A stretch of 46,627 nucleotides of DNA, from assembly GCA_013695765.1 (NCBI GenBank), contig JACCZW010000076.1, positions 1 through 46,627 of the forward strand, given 5' to 3'. Numbering within the stretch: the stretch's first letter is position 1; each line of letters begins with the position of its first letter. The notes beneath the pieces were generated by a model, which made no database searches, was not told the DNA's origin, and was given only the letters and a program-made list of their open reading frames with translations. Origin of the DNA: Gammaproteobacteria bacterium (GTDB taxonomy: Bacteria; Pseudomonadota; Gammaproteobacteria; JACCYU01). Positions 12,693 through 45,799 of the stretch are shown one piece after another. The position numbers were made by a program, and so were the translations under genes.

Positions 12693-12746
12693 ATGTTGGA
12701 CAAAATCGAGTACCGCGCCGGTGCGGCGCGCGCGCCAGATAGATAG
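12693..12746 (+). CDS. 17-residue leader ORF ahead of sulfotransferase-like gene
   Basis: A strong AGGAGGGG (12677-12684) sits 8 bases before ATG 12693-12695. That ATG opens MLDKIEYRAGAARAPDR and stops at TAG 12744-12746. The next gene's ATG is at 12748, one base after the stop, and has no ribosome binding site of its own. This arrangement fits translational coupling. Alternatively it is the original start of the downstream gene, now out of frame with it. Confidence 0.4.
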   Translation: MLDKIEYRAGAARAPDR

Positions 12747-12747
12747 T

Positions 12748-13674
12748 ATGCCTTCGCTTGTTGCGGCAAGGGCGTTGATCGCTAAAGCCAGAAACGCGCT
12801 TACACGCCGCATCAAACGCAATTACTACCTCACCCGGCTGCACCAGCAGCTGATGTATGCGCGTGGGGATTTGAGGCATCAGGAACCGATTATCATCTAT
12901 CAGCGCGGCAAGGCCGGCTCATCCAGTGTCTACCATACTTTGCGGAATATGGATCTTGGTCGCCCCGTCTTTCACGTTCATTTCATCAACGCCATCGATC
13001 GCCGGCACCGGCAGATATGCAGCGATGTCAAAATGACGCCGCGCGCTTATTTCGCACGTGGCCGGCATCTGGTGGTGAGTCAATATCTGAGCAAAGAGAT
13101 CAATAGGGGCTTGCACGGCAGAAAATGGAAGGTCATCACCTTGATCCGCGATCCGCTGAAACAGAAAATGTCCTCTTTTTTTCAACTCGTCGATCTGATC
13201 ATCCCCAATTTCGAGCAGCGCTGGCGTAACAACACCTTGCCTGTTGAAACACTCACAAAAATTTTTCTGGGGCGCTATCAGGTCGATCGCGGGCAGAGTG
13301 ACTGGTTTCAACGTGAGATCAATCCGGTGTTCGGCATCGACGTCTTCGCTACCGACTTTGCAACGTCGCGGGGTTATCAAATCTATCACGGCGACCGCGC
13401 CGATCTGCTGCTGATCAGGCTGGAGAACCTGAGCCAGTGCGCGACCGAGGCGTTCGGCGAGTTTCTGGGTCTTACCGACTTTAAGCTGAGCAACGAGAAT
13501 ATTACGAGCGACAAGACGCATGCCGAGATATATCAGAAATTTGTAAACACCACGGTATTGCCGGAGACTTATATCAATGCGGTGTACGATTCAGTCTACG
13601 TCCGGCATTTTTATACCGCCGCGGAAGTCGAAACATTCAAGGCGCAATATCACTATTGTGCGGACAAGGTTTGA
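12748..13674 (+). CDS. Sulfotransferase-like putative capsular polysaccharide synthesis protein (copy 2)
   Basis: The product is 308 aa from ATG 12748 (an in-frame GTG lies at 12721). It is a paralogue of the gene at 1045-2034 over almost its whole length. The 5'-PAPS-like motif is [17 protein letters not shown] (about 49-65) and the 3'-phosphate motif is [15 protein letters not shown] (131-145), with Arg134 and Ser142. Other blocks shared with copy 1 include the stretches around [19 protein letters not shown] and EAFGEFLGL. The family is associated with capsule or exopolysaccharide synthesis; sulfation of a surface glycan is inference. Here it sits between housekeeping genes, not in a sugar locus, so it may have been copied or inserted. 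A coupled leader ORF precedes it. Confidence 0.75.
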
Positions 13675-34843: not shown

Positions 34844-35362
34844 TTAAAGGTTAGGGGGGTTCCCCAGGTGGATATCGACGGGCTTTTTTCCATCCTCGTC
34901 GATCTCCGCGAGCGCACGGAACAGGCGTTCGTTTGCTTCTCTAAGCCGACGGCTGAGTTCCCTGGCGAGATTCATCTGAATCAAGGTGAACTGCGCCATA
35001 TCCTCGTTATAGACCTCGAAAAGCGTGGCCGCTGTCAGTTCGATCGCGAGACAGTCTTCCTCCGCCTGCGCGGAGGCACTGCGTGGAAAGAGATCGATCA
35101 GCGCCATCTCGCCAAAGCAGTCGCCTTTACCCAAACAGCCCAGGGTAACGCTGCGATGCTTCCAGGTCTTGAAGATGGCGACTTTACCTTCCTTCAACAC
35201 GAACATAGAGCGCGCCTGGTCGTCCTCTCGAAAAAAGAAACCGCCCGCGGGGATAGGAATAACGGGCGCCAGCCGCAGTAGTAAGTTCAATATATCTTCG
35301 CGTACGCCGCCGAATACCGGCATGTCCTGCAACAATTTAAGCTTGCGCATGCCGGCCGACAC
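34844..35362 (-). CDS. Stand-alone cyclic-nucleotide-binding domain protein
   Basis: The product is 172 aa and is a single Crp-type cNMP-binding domain followed by a charged helix. No DNA-binding helix-turn-helix is present. The phosphate-binding cassette is GKGDCFGEMALIDLFPRSAS (about 79-98), with the Glu and Arg that contact cyclic nucleotide both in place. The tail NLARELSRRLREANERLFRA could form a coiled coil. It may be a cAMP or cGMP sensor that signals through a protein partner. It lies downstream of the Crp/Fnr gene on the same strand (45 bases between) and converges with metH. Together with the divergent cyclase at 36416 it suggests a local cyclic-nucleotide circuit. Confidence 0.82.
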   Translation of the reverse strand: MSAGMRKLKLLQDMPVFGGVREDILNLLLRLAPVIPIPAGGFFFREDDQARSMFVLKEGKVAIFKTWKHRSVTLGCLGKGDCFGEMALIDLFPRSASAQAEEDCLAIELTAATLFEVYNEDMAQFTLIQMNLARELSRRLREANERLFRALAEIDEDGKKPVDIHLGNPPNL

Positions 35363-35407
35363 TCACGTCACGGTAACCGCGGTTGCCACGCCTTCACCTG
35401 CGCCCGC

Positions 35408-36052
35408 TTACCAGGCACGCGGCAGTGGCCGGGCGATGGTAAATTTGCGGTCCTTGATTTCGACGTATCCGCCGGTCGTCAGGTCTTTCATGATGTGGCT
35501 TACCATCTCGCGCGATGCGCCTACCATGCTGGCAATATCCTGATGCGTAAACCGCTCGGCGATTGTCAGCCGACCCTCCCTCTCCTCAGCCAGATTCATC
35601 AAGGTGCGCGCTACGCGGCCATAGACATCGTTTAATGCGAGGTTCTTGACCAACTCGGTGAGGACGCGCACGCGCTGCGCTAGATCGCGAATGAGTCTGA
35701 AAGCCACCGCCGGATTCTGCTGAATGCACGCGCTGAAGGCCGCGCGTGAAACACACGCGAGCCGGACGGGTTCCAGGGTCATGACGGATGCGGATCGCTG
35801 GCCGGCGTCGAGCAGCGCCAGTTCGCCGAAATACTCGCCGGGTCCCTGTACGTTCAGGATGATTTCCTTGCCCGCGGCTTCGCTGGCATAGATTTTTACC
35901 CGCCCCTCCATGATCACGTAAAGACTGTCTGTTTCGCTGCCCTCGGTCACTATCACGGCGCGTCGGGGATAGGTGCGGTTCACACCACATCGGGCGATGA
36001 ACTGAATATCCTCGGGCGAGGGTCCTGCGGGTGTCAAAACGTCGGCATTCAT
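35408..36052 (-). CDS. Crp/Fnr family transcription regulator
   Basis: The product is 214 aa from ATG 36050-36052; the longer upstream frame has no homology. The N-terminal cNMP-binding domain has the cassette GPGEYFGELALLDAGQRSAS with the cyclic-nucleotide Glu and Arg. The dimer helix is RLIRDLAQRVRVLTELV, and the C-terminal winged helix shows FTHQDIASMVGASREMVSHI then MKDLTTGGYVEI, in which the recognition helix carries 'SREMVSH'. No FNR-type N-terminal cysteine cluster is seen, so it is more like Crp. It probably controls the neighbouring divergent cyclase, but no symmetric TGTGA-N6-TCACA site is obvious between them. Confidence 0.88.
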   Translation of the reverse strand: MNADVLTPAGPSPEDIQFIARCGVNRTYPRRAVIVTEGSETDSLYVIMEGRVKIYASEAAGKEIILNVQGPGEYFGELALLDAGQRSASVMTLEPVRLACVSRAAFSACIQQNPAVAFRLIRDLAQRVRVLTELVKNLALNDVYGRVARTLMNLAEEREGRLTIAERFTHQDIASMVGASREMVSHIMKDLTTGGYVEIKDRKFTIARPLPRAW

Positions 36053-36415
36053 GCGGAAGCCTCGGGCCTGGGCAGGGCATAGATCGGGTCGAAATGCGTT
36101 GCGATTGTCGGCGCATATGTCTATCGGTGCAAGGCGGTTAGCGGAGCGGGAGCGTCTCGCTCGCTTTTGTGCGCCCTCGTCTTCGAAGAAAGCGCGCGAG
36201 TGCGACGCGCCCAACAATGCCGCGCACGAAAAGGTTTTTCAACAGCCCCTCAATATGCTTTCCAGGCGCGCAGGAACTTCGGCACGCCGCAGTGGTGTTC
36301 TGTCGCCGATTCTGTTATCCGTATCACCGTCTCCGAATCGAGGGAGCGATCAGGCGGCAGTACCGGCTGAGTCTCGGCGACTCCGATCCCAATGTTGTGC
36401 CAAATATAACCGGCC
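36053..36415. other. Divergent intergenic region between Crp/Fnr and cyclase genes
   Basis: This stretch of about 360 bases holds no supported gene. It must contain the promoters of both neighbours. I looked for Crp (TGTGA-N6-TCACA) and FNR (TTGAT-N4-ATCAA) sites and found none that is convincing. Overlapping short frames on both strands show no known domain. Confidence 0.4.
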
Positions 36416-38713
36416 ATGACATTCACACTGCCAAGGCATGCGGTAAACAAGCGACTCGTCAAATCGCTGGTGCTGGGAAGCTTCATGGGTCTGCTCGGGC
36501 TCGTGTGCTCCGCCCTGCCGCTGATCGAGCGCCTGGAGCTTGACTTGGGTCTGGCCACGCTGTTTCACCTGCGCGGCGCGCGGGCGCCCCCCGATGAGGT
36601 CGTAATCGTCAGCATCAGCGGTGCGTCTTCACGAATACTTGGTTTGCCCAACGAACCCGAAGCCTGGCCGCGCTCGCTGCACGGGCGCCTGGTCAGGAAT
36701 CTCACGGACAAAGGCGCGCGCATGATCGCATTCGACCTTATCTTCGACCAACCTGGCCGTGGGCGAGAAGATCGTGCTTTCGCCCAGGCTATGCGAGCAG
36801 CCGATAACGTGGTGCTGTTTGAGTACCTGCGCCTGAGCAAGCAGCAGCTTGTCGGCGCCGATGGCGACACGCCCATATCGCTCGTAAGCTCGGACATAAG
36901 CATCGAGCAAAGGATTCCTCCCATTCCGACGTTTGCGCGCGCCGCGGCGGCGGTCGCTCCCTTTCCGCTTCCGGAGGTACGCGCCAAGGTGAGCCAGGTA
37001 TGGTTGTTTAAGCCGGGCGCGGGGGATGCCGCAACGCTGCCGGTGGTGGCGTTACTGGAATATGCACGTTCGCATTATCGAGCTTTCGTTGCGGCTATAA
37101 CCAAGACCTGGCGCGCGCTGGAGCCGGGGGCAGAGCTTCCGCTGCTGCCAGGCGGCAATGATGGAGCAACGATTCAGGCGTCGGCGCTACGCGCGTTGTT
37201 ACGCGCTCATCCCAGGCTTGTCTTGGCGTTGCGTGAGCGGCTTGTCGCGCGCGAACATGGCATGGACACGCAAGCCCGCCGCGTCATGCTCGCGTTGTTG
37301 CACGCGCACCTCCGGGGCGATTCCCGCTTCATCGACTTTTACGGTCCGCCGCACAGCGTCACCACGGTGCCGTACTACGAAGCATTGAAGCCCTGTACTG
37401 TCCACACTATGAGCGGCAGACCAATCGACCTGCGCAATAAAGCGGTCTTCGTGGGTTTTGCCGAGCAATCGTATCCGGAACAGCGAGACGACTTCTACAC
37501 AGTTTTTTCGCGGACGGATGGGCTGGACTTAAGCGGCGTGGAGATCGCCGCCACGAGCTTCGCCAACCTGCTGGATAACCGCGGCGTGCGCCCGCTTGAG
37601 GCGCCGTGGTGGGCGCTGTCAATCCTGTGCAGGGGCCTCGGTGTCGGCATGCTATTGTTCTGGTTGCCCGGCAGCGCTGCGGTCGGCGGCGCCGGATTTC
37701 TGGCCGTAACCATGGCAGGAACGGCGTACGCTCTATTCAGCACTTACGGCATCTGGCTGCAGTTGCTGGTGCCATTGGCCGTACAACTTCCAGCGGCGAT
37801 GGCCGGGGCATTGCTGTGGCAACGTCTGGATAGCCGCCGCGAGAGCCGGCGTCTGCACCGCACGCTGGGATTATATTTGCCCAGGGGCGCGACCGAAGCG
37901 CTCGCCCGGCACGCTGGCGATGTGGCCAGTCTCGGCGGCCGATCGCTCCAAGGTGTGTGTATGGCGACCGATGCCGCGCGCTACACCCGGCTCTCCGAGA
38001 GCATGCAACCGGATGCGCTGCGCGCGCTGTTGAATCAATACTTCGACGTATTGTTTGCGCCCGTACGCCGGCACGGCGGGGACGTATCCGATGTCGTTGG
38101 CGACGCGATGCTGGCGATCTGGAGTCGTGGTCCGGCACCGGCGCTGCGCGAGGCCGCTTGCCGCGCCGCCCTGGAAATCATAGCCGCGCTGGACGACTTC
38201 AATCGCACCAACGGCGAGGCCCGTTTACCGACGCGCATCGGCCTGCATTGCGGCCCGATTCAGCTCGGCAATGTCGGCGCTGTGGATCACTTCGAGTATC
38301 GCGCCGTGGGCGACGTCGTCAACGCGGCGTCCCGCATCGAAGGCTTAAGCAAACATCTGGGCACCCGCATTCTGGTCTCAGCCGCGATGGTGGAGGACCT
38401 GCCCGGATTCATCACGCGCGAGTTGGGTGAATTTCGGCTGGCCGGCAAGACACAATCATTGGTCATCTATGAGTTGCTGGCGACGACCGGCCAGGAAGCT
38501 GACCGATACCGCGGGTTGCGGGAGGCGTTTGCGCGTGGCTTGCACGCATTCCGCGCTCGCGATTGGCTTGCAGCCATAGCCGCCTTCAACGCTTGCCTGG
38601 AACACACCGCCGACGATGGACCCGCGCGATATTATCTTGAGCTTTGCCAACGTTACCAGCGCAAGCCGCGACCGGCCAACTGGCACGGTGTGGTGTCCAT
38701 GCGCCGCAAGTAA
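36416..38713 (+). CDS. CHASE2-domain class III nucleotidyl cyclase
   Basis: The product is 765 aa. An N-terminal membrane anchor (SLVLGSFMGLLGLVCSALPL) leads into a periplasmic CHASE2 sensor (about 50-380; for example VVIVSISGASSRILG and MIAFDLIFDQPG). Two or three transmembrane helices follow (about 400-470), then a cytoplasmic cyclase domain (about 505-690). Metal Asp519 (MATDAARYT) and Asp563 (VVGDAMLAIW) and the transition-state Asn636/Arg640 (VVNAASRIE) are present. The adenine-specifying Lys is replaced by Asp559 and the second specificity position is Arg629. The product could therefore be cAMP, cGMP or unusual; this comes from my manual alignment. The C-terminal ~75 residues look TPR-like. 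It likely signals to the cNMP-binding neighbours. Confidence 0.87.
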   Translation: MTFTLPRHAVNKRLVKSLVLGSFMGLLGLVCSALPLIERLELDLGLATLFHLRGARAPPDEVVIVSISGASSRILGLPNEPEAWPRSLHGRLVRNLTDKGARMIAFDLIFDQPGRGREDRAFAQAMRAADNVVLFEYLRLSKQQLVGADGDTPISLVSSDISIEQRIPPIPTFARAAAAVAPFPLPEVRAKVSQVWLFKPGAGDAATLPVVALLEYARSHYRAFVAAITKTWRALEPGAELPLLPGGNDGATIQASALRALLRAHPRLVLALRERLVAREHGMDTQARRVMLALLHAHLRGDSRFIDFYGPPHSVTTVPYYEALKPCTVHTMSGRPIDLRNKAVFVGFAEQSYPEQRDDFYTVFSRTDGLDLSGVEIAATSFANLLDNRGVRPLEAPWWALSILCRGLGVGMLLFWLPGSAAVGGAGFLAVTMAGTAYALFSTYGIWLQLLVPLAVQLPAAMAGALLWQRLDSRRESRRLHRTLGLYLPRGATEALARHAGDVASLGGRSLQGVCMATDAARYTRLSESMQPDALRALLNQYFDVLFAPVRRHGGDVSDVVGDAMLAIWSRGPAPALREAACRAALEIIAALDDFNRTNGEARLPTRIGLHCGPIQLGNVGAVDHFEYRAVGDVVNAASRIEGLSKHLGTRILVSAAMVEDLPGFITRELGEFRLAGKTQSLVIYELLATTGQEADRYRGLREAFARGLHAFRARDWLAAIAAFNACLEHTADDGPARYYLELCQRYQRKPRPANWHGVVSMRRK

Positions 38714-38716
38714 ACA

Positions 38717-39157
38717 GCTTTCGGCCCGCGATCATCACCGCAATCTCCTGCGATCGTCGTTCTCGCCTGCTGCACGTACATATCGATCAAACGCGGAGAA
38801 CGCGTACCGCGGGGTACAACGGGCAATGCCTTTCATGACGGATGCCATCGCCGTCCTGTCGGACGACCTGGACGCCATCTGGACTTTGGCGATGGTTGTT
38901 AATTAGGCGGCGCGTAGATGGTAGAGCGCAGCGACCATCGATGGCCCTTGGTCTGCCGACGGGGGTCGCTCACGCGCCTCTACCCATTGCGTTGCTCGGG
39001 TTATTTTTCACGCCGAGACCGTGCATTCTTCACTGCGCTCACACGGTGCGATCCCGATACTGCGCCTACAGTAAAAGCTGTGGAGCGAGCCCACTAGCCG
39101 CGCTTGCATTTCTAACCTTAAATACGTCGTGATCGTCGATACGGACAGGAGTTTTTT
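38717..39157. other. Non-coding gap after the cyclase gene
   Basis: I see no supported gene in this ~440-base stretch. A run around 38901-38925 resembles a tRNA D-arm, but no anticodon or T-arm follows. The right end contains AGGAG (39148-39152), the ribosome binding site of the small ORF at 39158. A promoter for the FecR-type gene may lie around 39100. Confidence 0.4.
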
Positions 39158-39340
39158 ATGAATTCGTGGCAGTTCTGGCTTCGTGTCTCTCTGTATTGGT
39201 GGCAGGTTGCCGCGCCGCGCGCAGGCCAAGTCGCGGACGATAAGCGAGAAGAGTCTGTCATGCGACCACAGGCTAACGTCATCCGAGTGGACTTCAGACA
39301 CGCGCGTCGATGCTCGCGTACGTTGCGCGCCGCTCGCTAA
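39158..39340 (+). CDS. Small ORF ahead of FecR-TPR-barrel gene (60 aa)
   Basis: A good AGGAG lies 5 bases before ATG 39158. The peptide begins MNSWQFWLRVSLYWWQVAAP, an amphipathic aromatic stretch, and then becomes charged and basic (RVDFRHARRCSRTLRAAR). No family is recognised. It overlaps, in another frame, the 5' open extension of the large gene but ends about 200 bases before that gene's likely signal peptide. It may be a leader or small membrane-associated protein. A chance ORF is possible, but the ribosome binding site is better than that of the large gene. Confidence 0.4.
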   Translation: MNSWQFWLRVSLYWWQVAAPRAGQVADDKREESVMRPQANVIRVDFRHARRCSRTLRAAR

Positions 39341-39542
39341 CGGAAAAAACTCAGTGCTTTTCGCATACAGCGTTATGGCTGCTATACTTTTAGAACGAAT
39401 CAAATTCGCTCTTGGCAGTAGTGAGATGGGGCACGCGCGGATGGGGGCTGATGCGTGTACGGATGGCGACAAGCCGGCACATCCCTGTAGAAAATTAGCA
39501 GTCGCCGCGCGCGTAGCTCGGCACCGCAGGCATCATCTCCTC

Positions 39543-42500
39543 ATGCGTCTCGCCTGCGCGCAAACATTCGCATGGTTAGCGATCGCGCCGGGACCGGTGA
39601 TGGCCCAGTGCATAACGTCAGTCGCGGAAGCCGTCTCCGTGCAGGGCACGGTGGAGGTGTGGCGCGCGGATCAATCCTTCTGGGAGCGCTTGACGCGCGG
39701 AGACAGTCTCTGCGCGGGCGACAGAGTCCGCGCGGACTCACACGCTCGCGCCGGTATCCTGCTGGGTGGCCACACCTTGATGCGCCTGGACCAGCGAACG
39801 ACCCTCACTTTCCCTGCGGCACCCACGCAGCGCACCTGGCTGGAACTCCTTAAAGGGGCACTCCATTTCATCAGTCGCACGCCGCAGCGCCTGGAGGTGG
39901 AAACCCCATTCGTCAATGCCGCGATCGAAGGCACTGAGTTCGCGCTGCGGGTGCAGGATGCCCGCACGTCGGTGTGGGTCTATGAAGGCCGCGTAGTCGC
40001 CGAGAATACGGGTGGTGTACTCGCGCTCGAGACGGGCGACGCCGCGGTCGCGACCCGAGGCGCCCCGCCCCGCCCGCAGGTGGTGCTGGATCCGCGCGAG
40101 GCGGTTAAGTGGGCGCTTTATTATCCGCCGCTGCTCGATCTGCGAACACTTGATGCCGGCCACGCGCGCGGCACGCTTGCGCAGTCCGTCGAGCGTTATC
40201 GCACAGGCGACGTGCGTGGTGGGCTGATGGTGCTTAAGCGCGTGCCGAACATTGCACGCGATGCGCGCTGGTTCAACATCCAGACTGCCTTGCTGCTCAG
40301 CGTTGGCCGCGTCGAGGCGGCACAAACGGCAATAGCGAACGCGCGCGAACGCGATCCACAAAGTGCCGCGCCGCTCGCCTACGAAGCCATCATCGGATTG
40401 ACACAAAACCGCAATGAGGCGGCGCGCGATCTCGCCCGGCAGGCCGTGGCGCTGGCGCCTGCATCGCCCATTGCGCACGCGGCGCTGTCTTATGCGCGGC
40501 AAGCGTCGTTTGATCTTGAAGGTGCGCTCGCCAGCGCCCGGCGCGCCATCGAGCTCGCCCCCAACGACGCGCTGGCATGGGCCAGACTTTCCGAGCTGGA
40601 GCTGGCGCGCGGCTACTCCGATGCCGCGGTTCGCGCCGCGGAAAAAGCGCGGGCTCCCGATCCGGCCGTGGCGCGCACGCAATCGGTGCTGGGCTTTGTA
40701 AATCTAGCGCGCATCGATACTGACCAGGCAACCCACGCTTTTAACACTGCCATCGGGCGCGATGAAGCCGACCCACTACCTCGCCTAGGCCTGGGTCTCG
40801 CCAAGATACGCGAAGGCGATCTTGACGGCGGCCGCCGCGATATCGAGATCGCCGCGAGTCTCGATCCAAGTCAATCGATTGCGCGCAGCTATCTGGGCAA
40901 GGCCTATTTTGAGGAGAAACGCAGCGCGCTTGCCGCCGAGCAGTACACCATGGCCAAGGAACTGGATCCGAACGATCCCACGCCCTGGTTCTACGACGCG
41001 ATCCTGAAGCAAACCGAAAATCGTCCGATCGAGGCGCTGCAGGACATCCAGCGCTCTATTGAATTAAACGACAACCGGGCCGTGTACCGCTCGCGTCTCT
41101 TGCTAGATGAAGACCTCGCCGCGCGTAGCGCCAGTCAGGCGCGCATCTATAGGGACTTGGGCTTCGAGCAACTCGCGCTGGTGGAGGGATGGAAATCCGT
41201 CAATACCGATCCATCGAACTATGGCGCGCATCGCCTGCTGGCCGACTCGTATTCCACCTTGCCGCGTCATGAAATTGCGCGCGTCAGTGAGCTGTTGCAG
41301 TCTCAGCTCTTGCAACCACTCAACATCACACCCTTACAGCCGCAACTTGCGGAAAGTGACCTGTTGATACTGGAGGGCGCAGGTCCGTCGGAGCCCTCTT
41401 TTAATGAGTTCAATCCACTCTTTACCCGTGATCGGTTAGGCCTGCAGGTGTCCGGCATCGGCGGCAGCAACGAGACCTTAGGCGAGGAAGTTACCCACTA
41501 CGGTCTGTGGGGCCCGTTTTCGTACAGCCTCGGCCAGTTCCACTTCGAAACCGACGGATTCAGGGAGAACAACGACCTAGAACACGATATCTATAACGCT
41601 TTCGTTCAAGCATCAATTTCTCCGCAGACAAGTGTGCAGGTGGAGTTCAGACAGGAGGAAACCGAGAGTGGCGACCTTCGATTGCGTTTCGATCGAGATG
41701 CGTTCGACAACCAGCGAAGTAATATTCGAGAGCAATCGTTGCGTCTCGGGCTTCACCATGAACTGAACCTAGGGCATGACATCATCGCTTCACTCGTTGA
41801 TACCGATCTGGATTCCCGCCTAGCACTCGGGGAGGAGGAGGTTTTTGCGCAGAACCTCGAAGCTGGCGGTGCCGAAGTACGGTATCTGTACCGCAACGAG
41901 CGGATGAATCTAGACCTTGGCGGCGGTCGTTTCGATCAAACTGGCGACCGCGCATTTTTTTTCCCGCAAGAAACAGATGTGGGCATCCGGCATACGAACG
42001 CCTATGGATATACCGACGTCAATATATCACCGAGTCTAGTTGGAACCTTGGGACTGAGCTTCGATGCTTTCGAGTCTGAGGCGGCCCCTCTGAGCTCCTA
42101 GAAAGAAACCGGATTAATCCCAAGTTGGGTCTCATCTGGGATATCTTGCCGTCGACAACCCTGCGGGCGGCGGCGTTCAGCACAGTCAAACGTCCTTTTG
42201 CGGCGAGCCAGACAGTAGAGCCTACGCAGGTAGCCGGTTTCAATCAATTCTTTGATGATGTAGACGGCACGAAGACCCGGCGTTATGGCGTCGGTATCGA
42301 CCACACACTCTCCGCTGACCTATTTGGTGGCATTGAGCTGTCTTGGCGCGACCTGGAAGTTCCTATACTTCAGCTGAATTTTGACGAGCGCACCCTGGCG
42401 TTTAATCTGGAGGACGAAGAGGAGCAGCTTCATCGAGCCTATCTTTACTGGACGCCGGCGCCGCGTTGGGCGTTTAGCGCAGAAGCCCAGCGCGAACAAT

Positions 42501-42865
42501 TCGAGCGAACCGATGAGGTCGGGGATACACTTCGTCCAACCGCCCTCACGACGCACCGCATCCCGTTAGTCGCGAACTACTATCACCCGAACGGACTGTT
42601 CGCTCGATTTGGCGCCACCTATGTGGATCAAGACGTGGATTCGCTGGCTGGCGGTGAAAGTGAGGGGGAAGAAAATTTCTGGACCGCCGATGCGACGGGT
42701 GGTTACCGACTGCCGAATCGCTTGGGTATCGCTGAATTGAGCGTCAGAAATGTCTTCAATGAAGATTTTCGGTTCGAAGATACGAATTTTCAGCTCGGAG
42801 AGCCGCGCATTTCGATACTTCAGCCGGAGCGCCAGATCTTTGTTCGGCTTATCGTCTCGTTTTGA
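39543..42865 (+). pseudogene. FecR-TPR-outer-membrane beta-barrel protein, one frameshift
   Basis: The likely start is ATG 39543, where MRLACAQTFAWLAIAPGPVM then AQ forms a signal peptide; the frame is open from 39183. A FecR domain follows (VQGTVEVWRADQSFWERLTR, TPFVNAAIEGTEFALRV, VWVYEGRVVA). About ten TPR-like helical repeats come next (for example PLAYEAIIGLTQNRNEAARD, NDALAWARLSELELARGYSD). The rest is beta-barrel-like, similar to TonB-dependent-receptor C-termini. The first frame stops at TAG 42099-42101. The next frame continues without a gap in homology as LLERNRINPKLGLIWDILPS and TLRAAAF to RQIFVRLIVSF, ending with the aromatic residue expected of barrel proteins. One base is lost or gained between about 42088 and 42098. 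Joined length is about 1107 aa. Possible roles are export or sensing; it may also be an assembly error. Confidence 0.72.
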
Positions 42866-42971
42866 TTACGCTGGGACGCGTCGTAACGAGCGTTCAAGAG
42901 TCCAAGTGCCACTGGGGGCGCTGCTAGTGGCTCGACTACGGTTTGCACTTAAACGAAAGAGGAGCGAGCAG

Positions 42972-43163
42972 ATGAGAAGGTCGACATGGATACTGGTAAT
43001 CTGTGTTTGGGCGTATGCCTGTGCGGAACCGGCGAACAGCGTTACTTGTAGGAGATGCTATACGATTCCCTATGTTGGGCCAACATGCGCTTGTAGAACG
43101 TTCCCGAGCAAAAATACCAGTCGGGCCGTCGGCCCCCAATGGAGACCGCGTACCCCGCCCTGA
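42972..43163 (+). CDS. Small secreted Cys-rich peptide (63 aa)
   Basis: A strong AAAGAGGAG (42956-42964) lies 7 bases before ATG 42972. The first ~23 residues, MRRSTWILVICVWAYACAEP plus ANS, form a signal peptide. The mature part is short and holds two CxxC/CxC pairs, VTCRRCYTIPYVGPTCACRT, followed by a Pro/Arg-rich tail ending PRTPP. No family is recognised. It lies 106 bases after the beta-barrel gene and before a terminator, so it probably shares that transcript. It might be a substrate, ligand or accessory of the barrel protein; this is speculation. Confidence 0.5.
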   Translation: MRRSTWILVICVWAYACAEPANSVTCRRCYTIPYVGPTCACRTFPSKNTSRAVGPQWRPRTPP

Positions 43164-43304
43164 CTCACGCTGGCGTAGCGTGGAATGCTTTAGCGGTTGC
43201 GCCAATCGATGCGGGCGTAACGCTCACGATTGCGCCCAACGATGATAATTTTATCGATTGCGATCATTCGCAAGCTGGTTTGTCGGTTCGTTAGCTCGCA
43301 TAAA

Positions 43305-43332
43305 GCGGAACGCATAGCGGTTCCGCCTTTTT
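43305..43332 (+). terminator. Rho-independent terminator
   Basis: GCGGAAC (43305-43311) pairs with GTTCCGC (43320-43326) across an 8-base loop and is followed by CTTTTT. It ends the possible beta-barrel/peptide transcript. The gap 43164-43304 holds nothing else recognisable. Confidence 0.75.
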
Positions 43333-43421
43333 GGAATTCGCGCTAGGCGCAGACCTTGGCAACATGACCGACAAGTGGGGAGTTATCTAGCTTGCGCAAC
43401 TGCATTACAGGAGATGCCGAG

Positions 43422-45361: not shown

Positions 45362-45379
45362 ATGCTAGAAGGAGTCAAA

Positions 45380-45799
45380 TATGTTTACGCCGAAATTTAC
45401 AAAACTGCTCTTCATCGTCCCCTTATGTCTTTTGCTCAGACAGCATTTGGTGGATTAGCTGTATCCCAGTGGTATCACGGCTGGTGGGACTGCAATATCG
45501 ACGGGCGGCCAGCCAAAATGGTATGGCAGGTGGTAAATGATTCTCGCACTACGTGTAACGGAAATGTGTGTTCGACCACTTCAGGCGTGAAGACGATTGG
45601 CTGGTTCAGCGACAATCGCTCGCCCTGGGTACGGCTAGGTATAAACTATACCATTGGCGATCGTCTTGGAATTCGCTACTTGGGCAGCGAGCCGGACAAC
45701 TGGGAGTTGACCTTCAACGCCAGCACCCTGACCGCGAACGGATGGACGACATGGAGAGGGAATCGCTATCCGCTCATGTGCTGGAATCGCCTTCGATAG
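45380..45799 (+). pseudogene. DUF6006-like secreted protein, frameshifted in the signal peptide
   Basis: AAGGAG (45367-45372) is placed for ATG 45380, which opens the signal-peptide start MFTPKFTKLLFIVPL. In that frame it stops after RQHLVD. The mature protein lies one frame away: SFAQTAFGGLAVSQWYHGWW, DCNIDGRPAKMVWQVVNDS, RTTCNGNVCSTTSGV, then NGWTTWRGNRYPLMCWN, ending TAG 45797-45799. Restoring one C in the run of C at 45418-45421 joins them as FIVPLMSFAQ. The mature part matches DUF6006 proteins of unknown function ('WxVV.D..TTCNG..C.STSG', 'WTTW.G.RYPL.C'). An ATG at 45362 is in frame with the mature part but would give no signal peptide. It is followed by a strong terminator. Confidence 0.65.

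Follow-up and report, generated by a model that had tools for sequence, protein, structure and literature searches.

The genes for a Crp-type regulator, a CHASE2 cyclase, and a FecR-TPR-barrel protein form a conserved gammaproteobacterial module, identified in a 46,627-nucleotide stretch of DNA (here referred to as the window) and in its relatives at the class level. Given the homology of the barrel protein to NsrA, our best reading is that the module would be a gammaproteobacterial variant of the known NsrA-CyaK-Clr kind of relay, with two conserved differences, one concerning a small protein and the other the predicted messenger.

Organization of the module in the window

By translation and profile searches, we confirmed the presence of the genes that an earlier note, made from the sequence alone, had described, with a cNMP-binding protein and a Crp/Fnr regulator on the minus strand and a CHASE2 cyclase on the plus strand. 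In particular, the Crp-type regulator (35408 to 36055, minus strand) contains a cyclic-nucleotide-binding domain and an HTH_Crp domain; its frame stays open up to 36217, and the probable start is at 36055. The plus-strand gene at 36416 to 38713 was assigned by profile search to a protein combining CHASE2 (residues 37 to 404) with a class III nucleotide cyclase catalytic domain (residues 517 to 680, approximately).

The FecR-TPR-barrel protein with its signal peptide had been taken for the product of a single open reading frame (ORF); the domains are all present, but a frameshift between about 42077 and 42101 splits the gene. The 5' part (39543 to 42101, plus strand; NsrA type) encodes the signal peptide, the FecR domain (about 39720 to 39995), the TPRs, and the first part of the barrel, and it terminates with a TAG at 42099 to 42101, while the 3' part runs in another frame (42101 to 42865, plus strand) and features Phe as its final residue, as in outer-membrane proteins. 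The complete homologues are uninterrupted ORFs of about 1,070 to 1,190 amino acids, which match both halves in order, with an identity of about 36 to 52% for the 5' half and of about 28 to 47% for the 3' half. Since both halves still match the homologues well, the frameshift, owing to which the receptor gene is not intact in the window's genome, appears to be either recent or a sequence error.

Downstream lies a 63-amino-acid ORF (42972 to 43163, plus strand) with a signal-like hydrophobic N terminus and several Cys residues, at the position occupied by the small secreted protein of the relatives. The terminator previously noticed after this ORF corresponds to a hairpin followed by a T run (43305 to 43333, plus strand), recognized by consensus match only.

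Two further components of the system as first proposed did not withstand the comparison with related loci. The lone cNMP-binding protein (34844 to 35362, minus strand), which had been assigned a part in relaying the signal, was rejected as a member of the module because its gene is not found beside the barrel gene outside the window's own genus, and the closer orthologues in genomes having the barrel gene are located on other contigs. In a genome of the same genus (89% nucleotide identity), metH, the cNMP gene, and crp are kept together, and the cyclase and barrel genes are absent; the similarity to the window ends at window position 36197. Upstream of crp in that genome (L097, positions 1 to 1298), the sequence has no relationship to the window; it contains short ORFs, among which one resembles, by eye, a fragment of a membrane-fusion protein (HlyD). 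The 60-amino-acid ORF (39158 to 39340, plus strand) has a homologue in none of the related loci and overlaps a 5' extension of the FecR frame, and it was likewise rejected.

Elsewhere in the window, positions 45362 to 45799 encode a DUF6006 protein (E value of 4e-55), belonging to a family of unknown function, and two ORFs (1045 to 2034, 329 amino acids; 12721 to 13674, 317 amino acids) are similar to each other and look by eye like sulfotransferase paralogues.

Recurrence of the module among Gammaproteobacteria

Since the taxonomic order of the window holds only three genomes, we extended the search to the whole class (369 genomes), where the FecR-TPR-barrel protein was matched in 47 genomes. 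A scan of contigs yielded three loci, and the genome search supplied most of the loci; the named records among the loci are gammaproteobacterial metagenome-assembled genomes. Of the 40 loci, 31 have a CHASE2 gene directly beside the barrel gene, encoding a cyclase in 29 cases and a histidine kinase in 2, and a Crp homologue is found beside the module in 22 of the 40. As for the nine loci devoid of an adjoining CHASE2 gene, two end at a contig edge and seven have usable flanks. With the exception of the small protein, no other recurrent neighbor was found among the nearby ORFs of the loci. The co-occurrence of Crp, CHASE2, and the FecR-TPR-barrel protein, which the earlier note had put forward as a check, holds across genera, unlike that of the lone cNMP protein and the 60-amino-acid ORF.

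The two loci in which a CHASE2-histidine kinase replaces the cyclase (L037 and L069) show that the enzyme can be exchanged beside a barrel gene of the same kind, which points to CHASE2 and the FecR-barrel protein as the conserved, constant pair. In both of them (L037, 10454 to 12505; L069, 6129 to 8198), a small ORF ending in Cys occurs between the CHASE2-histidine kinase gene and the barrel gene. We could also notice that the FecR-TPR-barrel gene is duplicated, in tandem or nearby, beside one cyclase in L060 and L079, and that genome G322 possesses a second FecR-TPR-barrel gene (L052, 11334 to 14171) located directly 3' of a gene for a TIR-nSTAND1-FGE-sulfatase protein, not of a CHASE2 gene.

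Regarding the fold, the barrel matches PF00593, the TonB-dependent-receptor barrel family, above the cutoff in the three homologues L036, L048, and L057, and no plug domain is listed N-terminal to it in these three proteins. No Slam TPR or Slam-type barrel model matched the FecR-TPR-barrel proteins. The AlphaFold model of the L036 homologue, obtained from four sequences, has a mean pLDDT of 40, and the usable information is limited to the succession of beta, helical-repeat, and beta regions.

Small secreted proteins encoded next to the barrel gene

In 27 of 40 loci, the barrel gene is followed by a small ORF with a signal-like N terminus, compared to 13 of 219 control genes of the same loci, and, when a Cys-containing C terminus is added, the figures become 21 of 40 and 2 of 219. 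The corresponding Fisher P value (about 1e-17) is indicative only, given the relatedness of the loci and the fact that we set the Cys criterion after the sequences had been seen. Profiles from which the member under test had been left out, along with its near relatives, recovered 20 of 24 small proteins at an E value of <0.05 among 9,389 ORFs. Furthermore, all 24 matches of the family profile at an E value of <1e-7 in the 369 genomes adjoin a FecR-barrel gene; many of them were already included in the profile, and the point is that strong copies do not occur elsewhere. The members tested (eight and six) received no Pfam or NCBIfam assignment above the cutoff.

The family shares a recurrent C-terminal pattern around IT.....GS..Y/C....G..Y, and many members carry a lipobox-like signal peptide, while some have no signal peptide. 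The median identity is 0.19 for the small protein, 0.27 to 0.34 for the barrel, and 0.54 for the TPR part. A hypervariable, mostly secreted small protein of an unnamed family, linked to the barrel gene, looks new. Since both the small protein and the barrel are variable, these sequences suggest that the two could be partners at the cell surface, with the small protein acting as a ligand, plug, or co-receptor.

The inclusion of the secreted peptide in the system, as initially proposed, is therefore sustained by many relatives, but for the window it rests on the position and the signal-like N terminus. The Cys-rich peptide of the window did not score above noise against the small-family profile, and we do not count it as a recognizable member of the family; an E value of 0.004, obtained with a profile that contained the peptide itself, was circular and was discarded. 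Short Cys-rich proteins are likewise found at the small-protein position in L042, L055, L061, L064, and L066.

A second copy of CHASE2, decayed and containing stop codons, is also present in the window's own genome (L078, contig C72 of genome G000, positions 115 to 1113). Given this copy, the frameshift in the barrel gene, and the missing small-family member, the module may be decaying in this genome, unless the frameshift is a sequencing or assembly error. The window is a damaged example, for which the relatives represent better material.

Residues of the cyclase and Crp and the predicted messenger

The residue comparison covered 30 cyclases, including that of the window, and 22 neighboring Crps. 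The metal-binding Asp residues are kept in all 30 cyclases, and the transition-state residues are Asn in 29 and Arg in 30 of them. The base-specifying pair features Asp in 27 of 30 and Arg in 28 of 30 cyclases (Asp559 and Arg629 in the window), different from the Lys/Asp or Lys/Thr pair of adenylate cyclases. In CyaK, the pair consists of Lys and Ser. It has been argued that an acidic residue at the position of the Lys usually marks guanylate cyclases and that a Lys or Arg at the partner position could bind the O6 of guanine (PMC4886424).

In Crp, the Gly, Glu, Arg, and Ser residues that bind the phosphate are conserved in 22 of 22 proteins, and 21 of 22 have Leu at the residue of the cAMP pocket that corresponds to E. 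coli Thr127, as does the Crp of the window. For its part, Clr responds to both cAMP and cGMP and employs Thr140 and Thr141. The evidence from the Leu is suggestive only, because the T127L substitution in E. coli CRP has been described as presumably lowering the cAMP requirement. The spacer between crp and the cyclase gene showed no enrichment in E. coli-type CRP sites.

The Asp/Arg pair of the cyclase and the Leu of Crp also look new; as both are conserved, we predict that cGMP, and not cAMP, may serve as the messenger. To our knowledge, few cGMP pathways are established in bacteria, and, if Asp/Arg cyclases make cGMP, they would represent a broad cGMP branch. A full cGMP relay, in which a guanylate cyclase with CHASE2 and a Crp responsive to cGMP would serve strain-specific sensing through a self-made small protein matched to the barrel receptor, is unlikely as a whole.

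Proposed mechanism and alternative explanations

The module probably operates as an outer-membrane-to-cytoplasm relay of the NsrA-CyaK-Clr type. The FecR-TPR-barrel protein would reside in the outer membrane, extending its FecR and TPR parts into the periplasm, and act as a receptor or co-receptor for an outside signal. It would hand this signal to the cyclase, anchored in the inner membrane, through the CHASE2 domain on the periplasmic side. The enzyme would then make a 3',5'-cyclic nucleotide, whose binding by the adjacent Crp-type regulator would change transcription. Where it is present, as in many relatives, the small protein would most likely act at the barrel as a ligand, plug, or co-receptor. 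We infer from these sequences the membrane topology, the direct contact between FecR/TPR and CHASE2, the identity of the messenger, and the role of the small protein. The idea, already expressed in the earlier note, that the cyclase and the barrel protein read a signal of the envelope and that Crp relays it finds support in the gene order and in the studied NsrA-CyaK-Clr pathway. Some observations weigh against this reading: the barrel half shows no detectable alignment with that of NsrA, seven loci with usable flanks have no CHASE2 gene next to the barrel gene, E. coli-type CRP sites are not enriched between crp and the cyclase gene, the barrel gene of the window is frameshifted, and the genome of the same genus has crp but neither the cyclase nor the barrel gene. 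How signals get from the outer membrane to a cyclase of the inner membrane is poorly understood, and the targets recognized by CHASE2 domains have been stated to be unknown (PMC5192318). The cassette, its histidine-kinase variants, and the small protein together offer a compact set composed of a receptor, a sensor, an output, and a candidate encoded ligand.

The same relay could operate with a small protein that inhibits the barrel/CHASE2 complex, or assists its maturation, in the periplasm, which we consider possible, even though the balance of the evidence is tilted against it. The lipobox-like signal peptide of many members fits anchoring to the inner leaflet, and the rhizobial nsrA and cyaK genes touch each other, leaving no room for a small gene, so that the small protein would not be essential to this kind of relay. 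However, the small protein diverges along with the barrel and not with the TPR part, which points to the exposed side. It is rather improbable that the TPR-barrel protein is instead an outer-membrane secretion pore for the small protein or for a polymer, regulated by the cyclase and Crp. Periplasmic TPRs joined to an outer-membrane barrel are indeed the plan of known exporters (Slam, PgaA, and BcsC), and a small protein, often bearing a lipobox, is encoded next door, as for many Slam substrates; on the other hand, the barrel matches PF00593 and no Slam barrel model, genes for polymer synthesis do not recur nearby, and some of the small proteins have no signal peptide. Between sensing and export, which the earlier note had left side by side, sensing is the more likely role, since the barrel matches that of the TonB-dependent receptors, with no plug, and NsrA, the homologue that has been studied, functions in the perception of signals. 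Finally, it is extremely unlikely that the genes are chance neighbors with unrelated functions: this explanation holds for the lone cNMP gene and the 60-amino-acid ORF, but the succession of the Crp, cyclase, and barrel genes is encountered across many genera and families, and chance proximity is excluded for the three-gene core because of the many genera that the loci span.

Comparison with known systems

A search of annotated plasmids with a full-length homologue retrieved nsrA on pSymB of S. meliloti, with cyaK directly 3' of it. NsrA, reportedly the subject of a study by Garnerone and colleagues in 2018, consists of FecR and TPR domains followed by a long C-terminal part, and the Sinorhizobium module serves the sensing of the plant host. 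The FecR and TPR parts of the window protein align with NsrA (E value of 1e-15), while the barrel does not detectably do so by BLASTP. The NsrA-CyaK-Clr pathway of Sinorhizobium meliloti (PMC13001267, PMC10127613) is the best-studied relative. There, the outer-membrane protein NsrA mediates the production of cAMP by CHASE2 cyclases in response to a signal, with Clr acting downstream (PMC13001267). The two systems have in common a FecR-TPR-(barrel) protein encoded beside a CHASE2 class III cyclase and a Crp-family regulator in the pathway; as in an nsrA-like locus, the FecR-TPR-barrel gene here lies next to the CHASE2 gene, the class III cyclase has its catalytic residues intact, and Crp possesses the cNMP-binding residues. 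Different from the rhizobial system, crp is located beside the cyclase gene, the cyclase gene precedes the barrel gene, whereas nsrA precedes cyaK, the base-specifying pair is Asp/Arg instead of Lys/Ser, and in many relatives a small-protein gene follows the barrel gene. In S. meliloti and in Rhizobium sp. BG4, where it lies beside the nsrA homologue, a divergent gene of the PycTM/DUF5706 (Pycsar effector) family occurs just upstream of nsrA (L084, 8328 to 8873, and L085, 6178 to 6717), i.e., a cyclic-nucleotide-linked effector near a module that makes cyclic nucleotides.

In Campylobacterota, the cluster around CHASE2 adenylate cyclases comprises an outer-membrane protein with FecR, a TPR protein, and a phosphodiesterase (PMC9239204); different from the module described here, it is described with FecR and TPR on separate proteins and includes the phosphodiesterase. 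The BiofilmReg operon of Burkholderia combines a secreted LysM-FecR protein with a CHASE2 histidine kinase (PMC5192318). It shares the pairing of a secreted FecR-domain protein with a CHASE2 signaling protein, but it features LysM-FecR instead of FecR-TPR-barrel and a histidine kinase with a response regulator instead of a cyclase with Crp. The FecA-FecR-FecI cell-surface signaling system relies on a FecR domain, a barrel of the TonB-receptor type, and an ECF sigma factor as the output, whereas in the present module a secreted FecR is fused to TPRs and a plugless barrel, and the output would be a cyclic nucleotide. The Slam exporters of surface lipoproteins likewise join periplasmic TPRs to an outer-membrane barrel, often with the substrate encoded next door; compared to them, the module presents a barrel of another family, an added FecR domain, and a coupled signaling enzyme.
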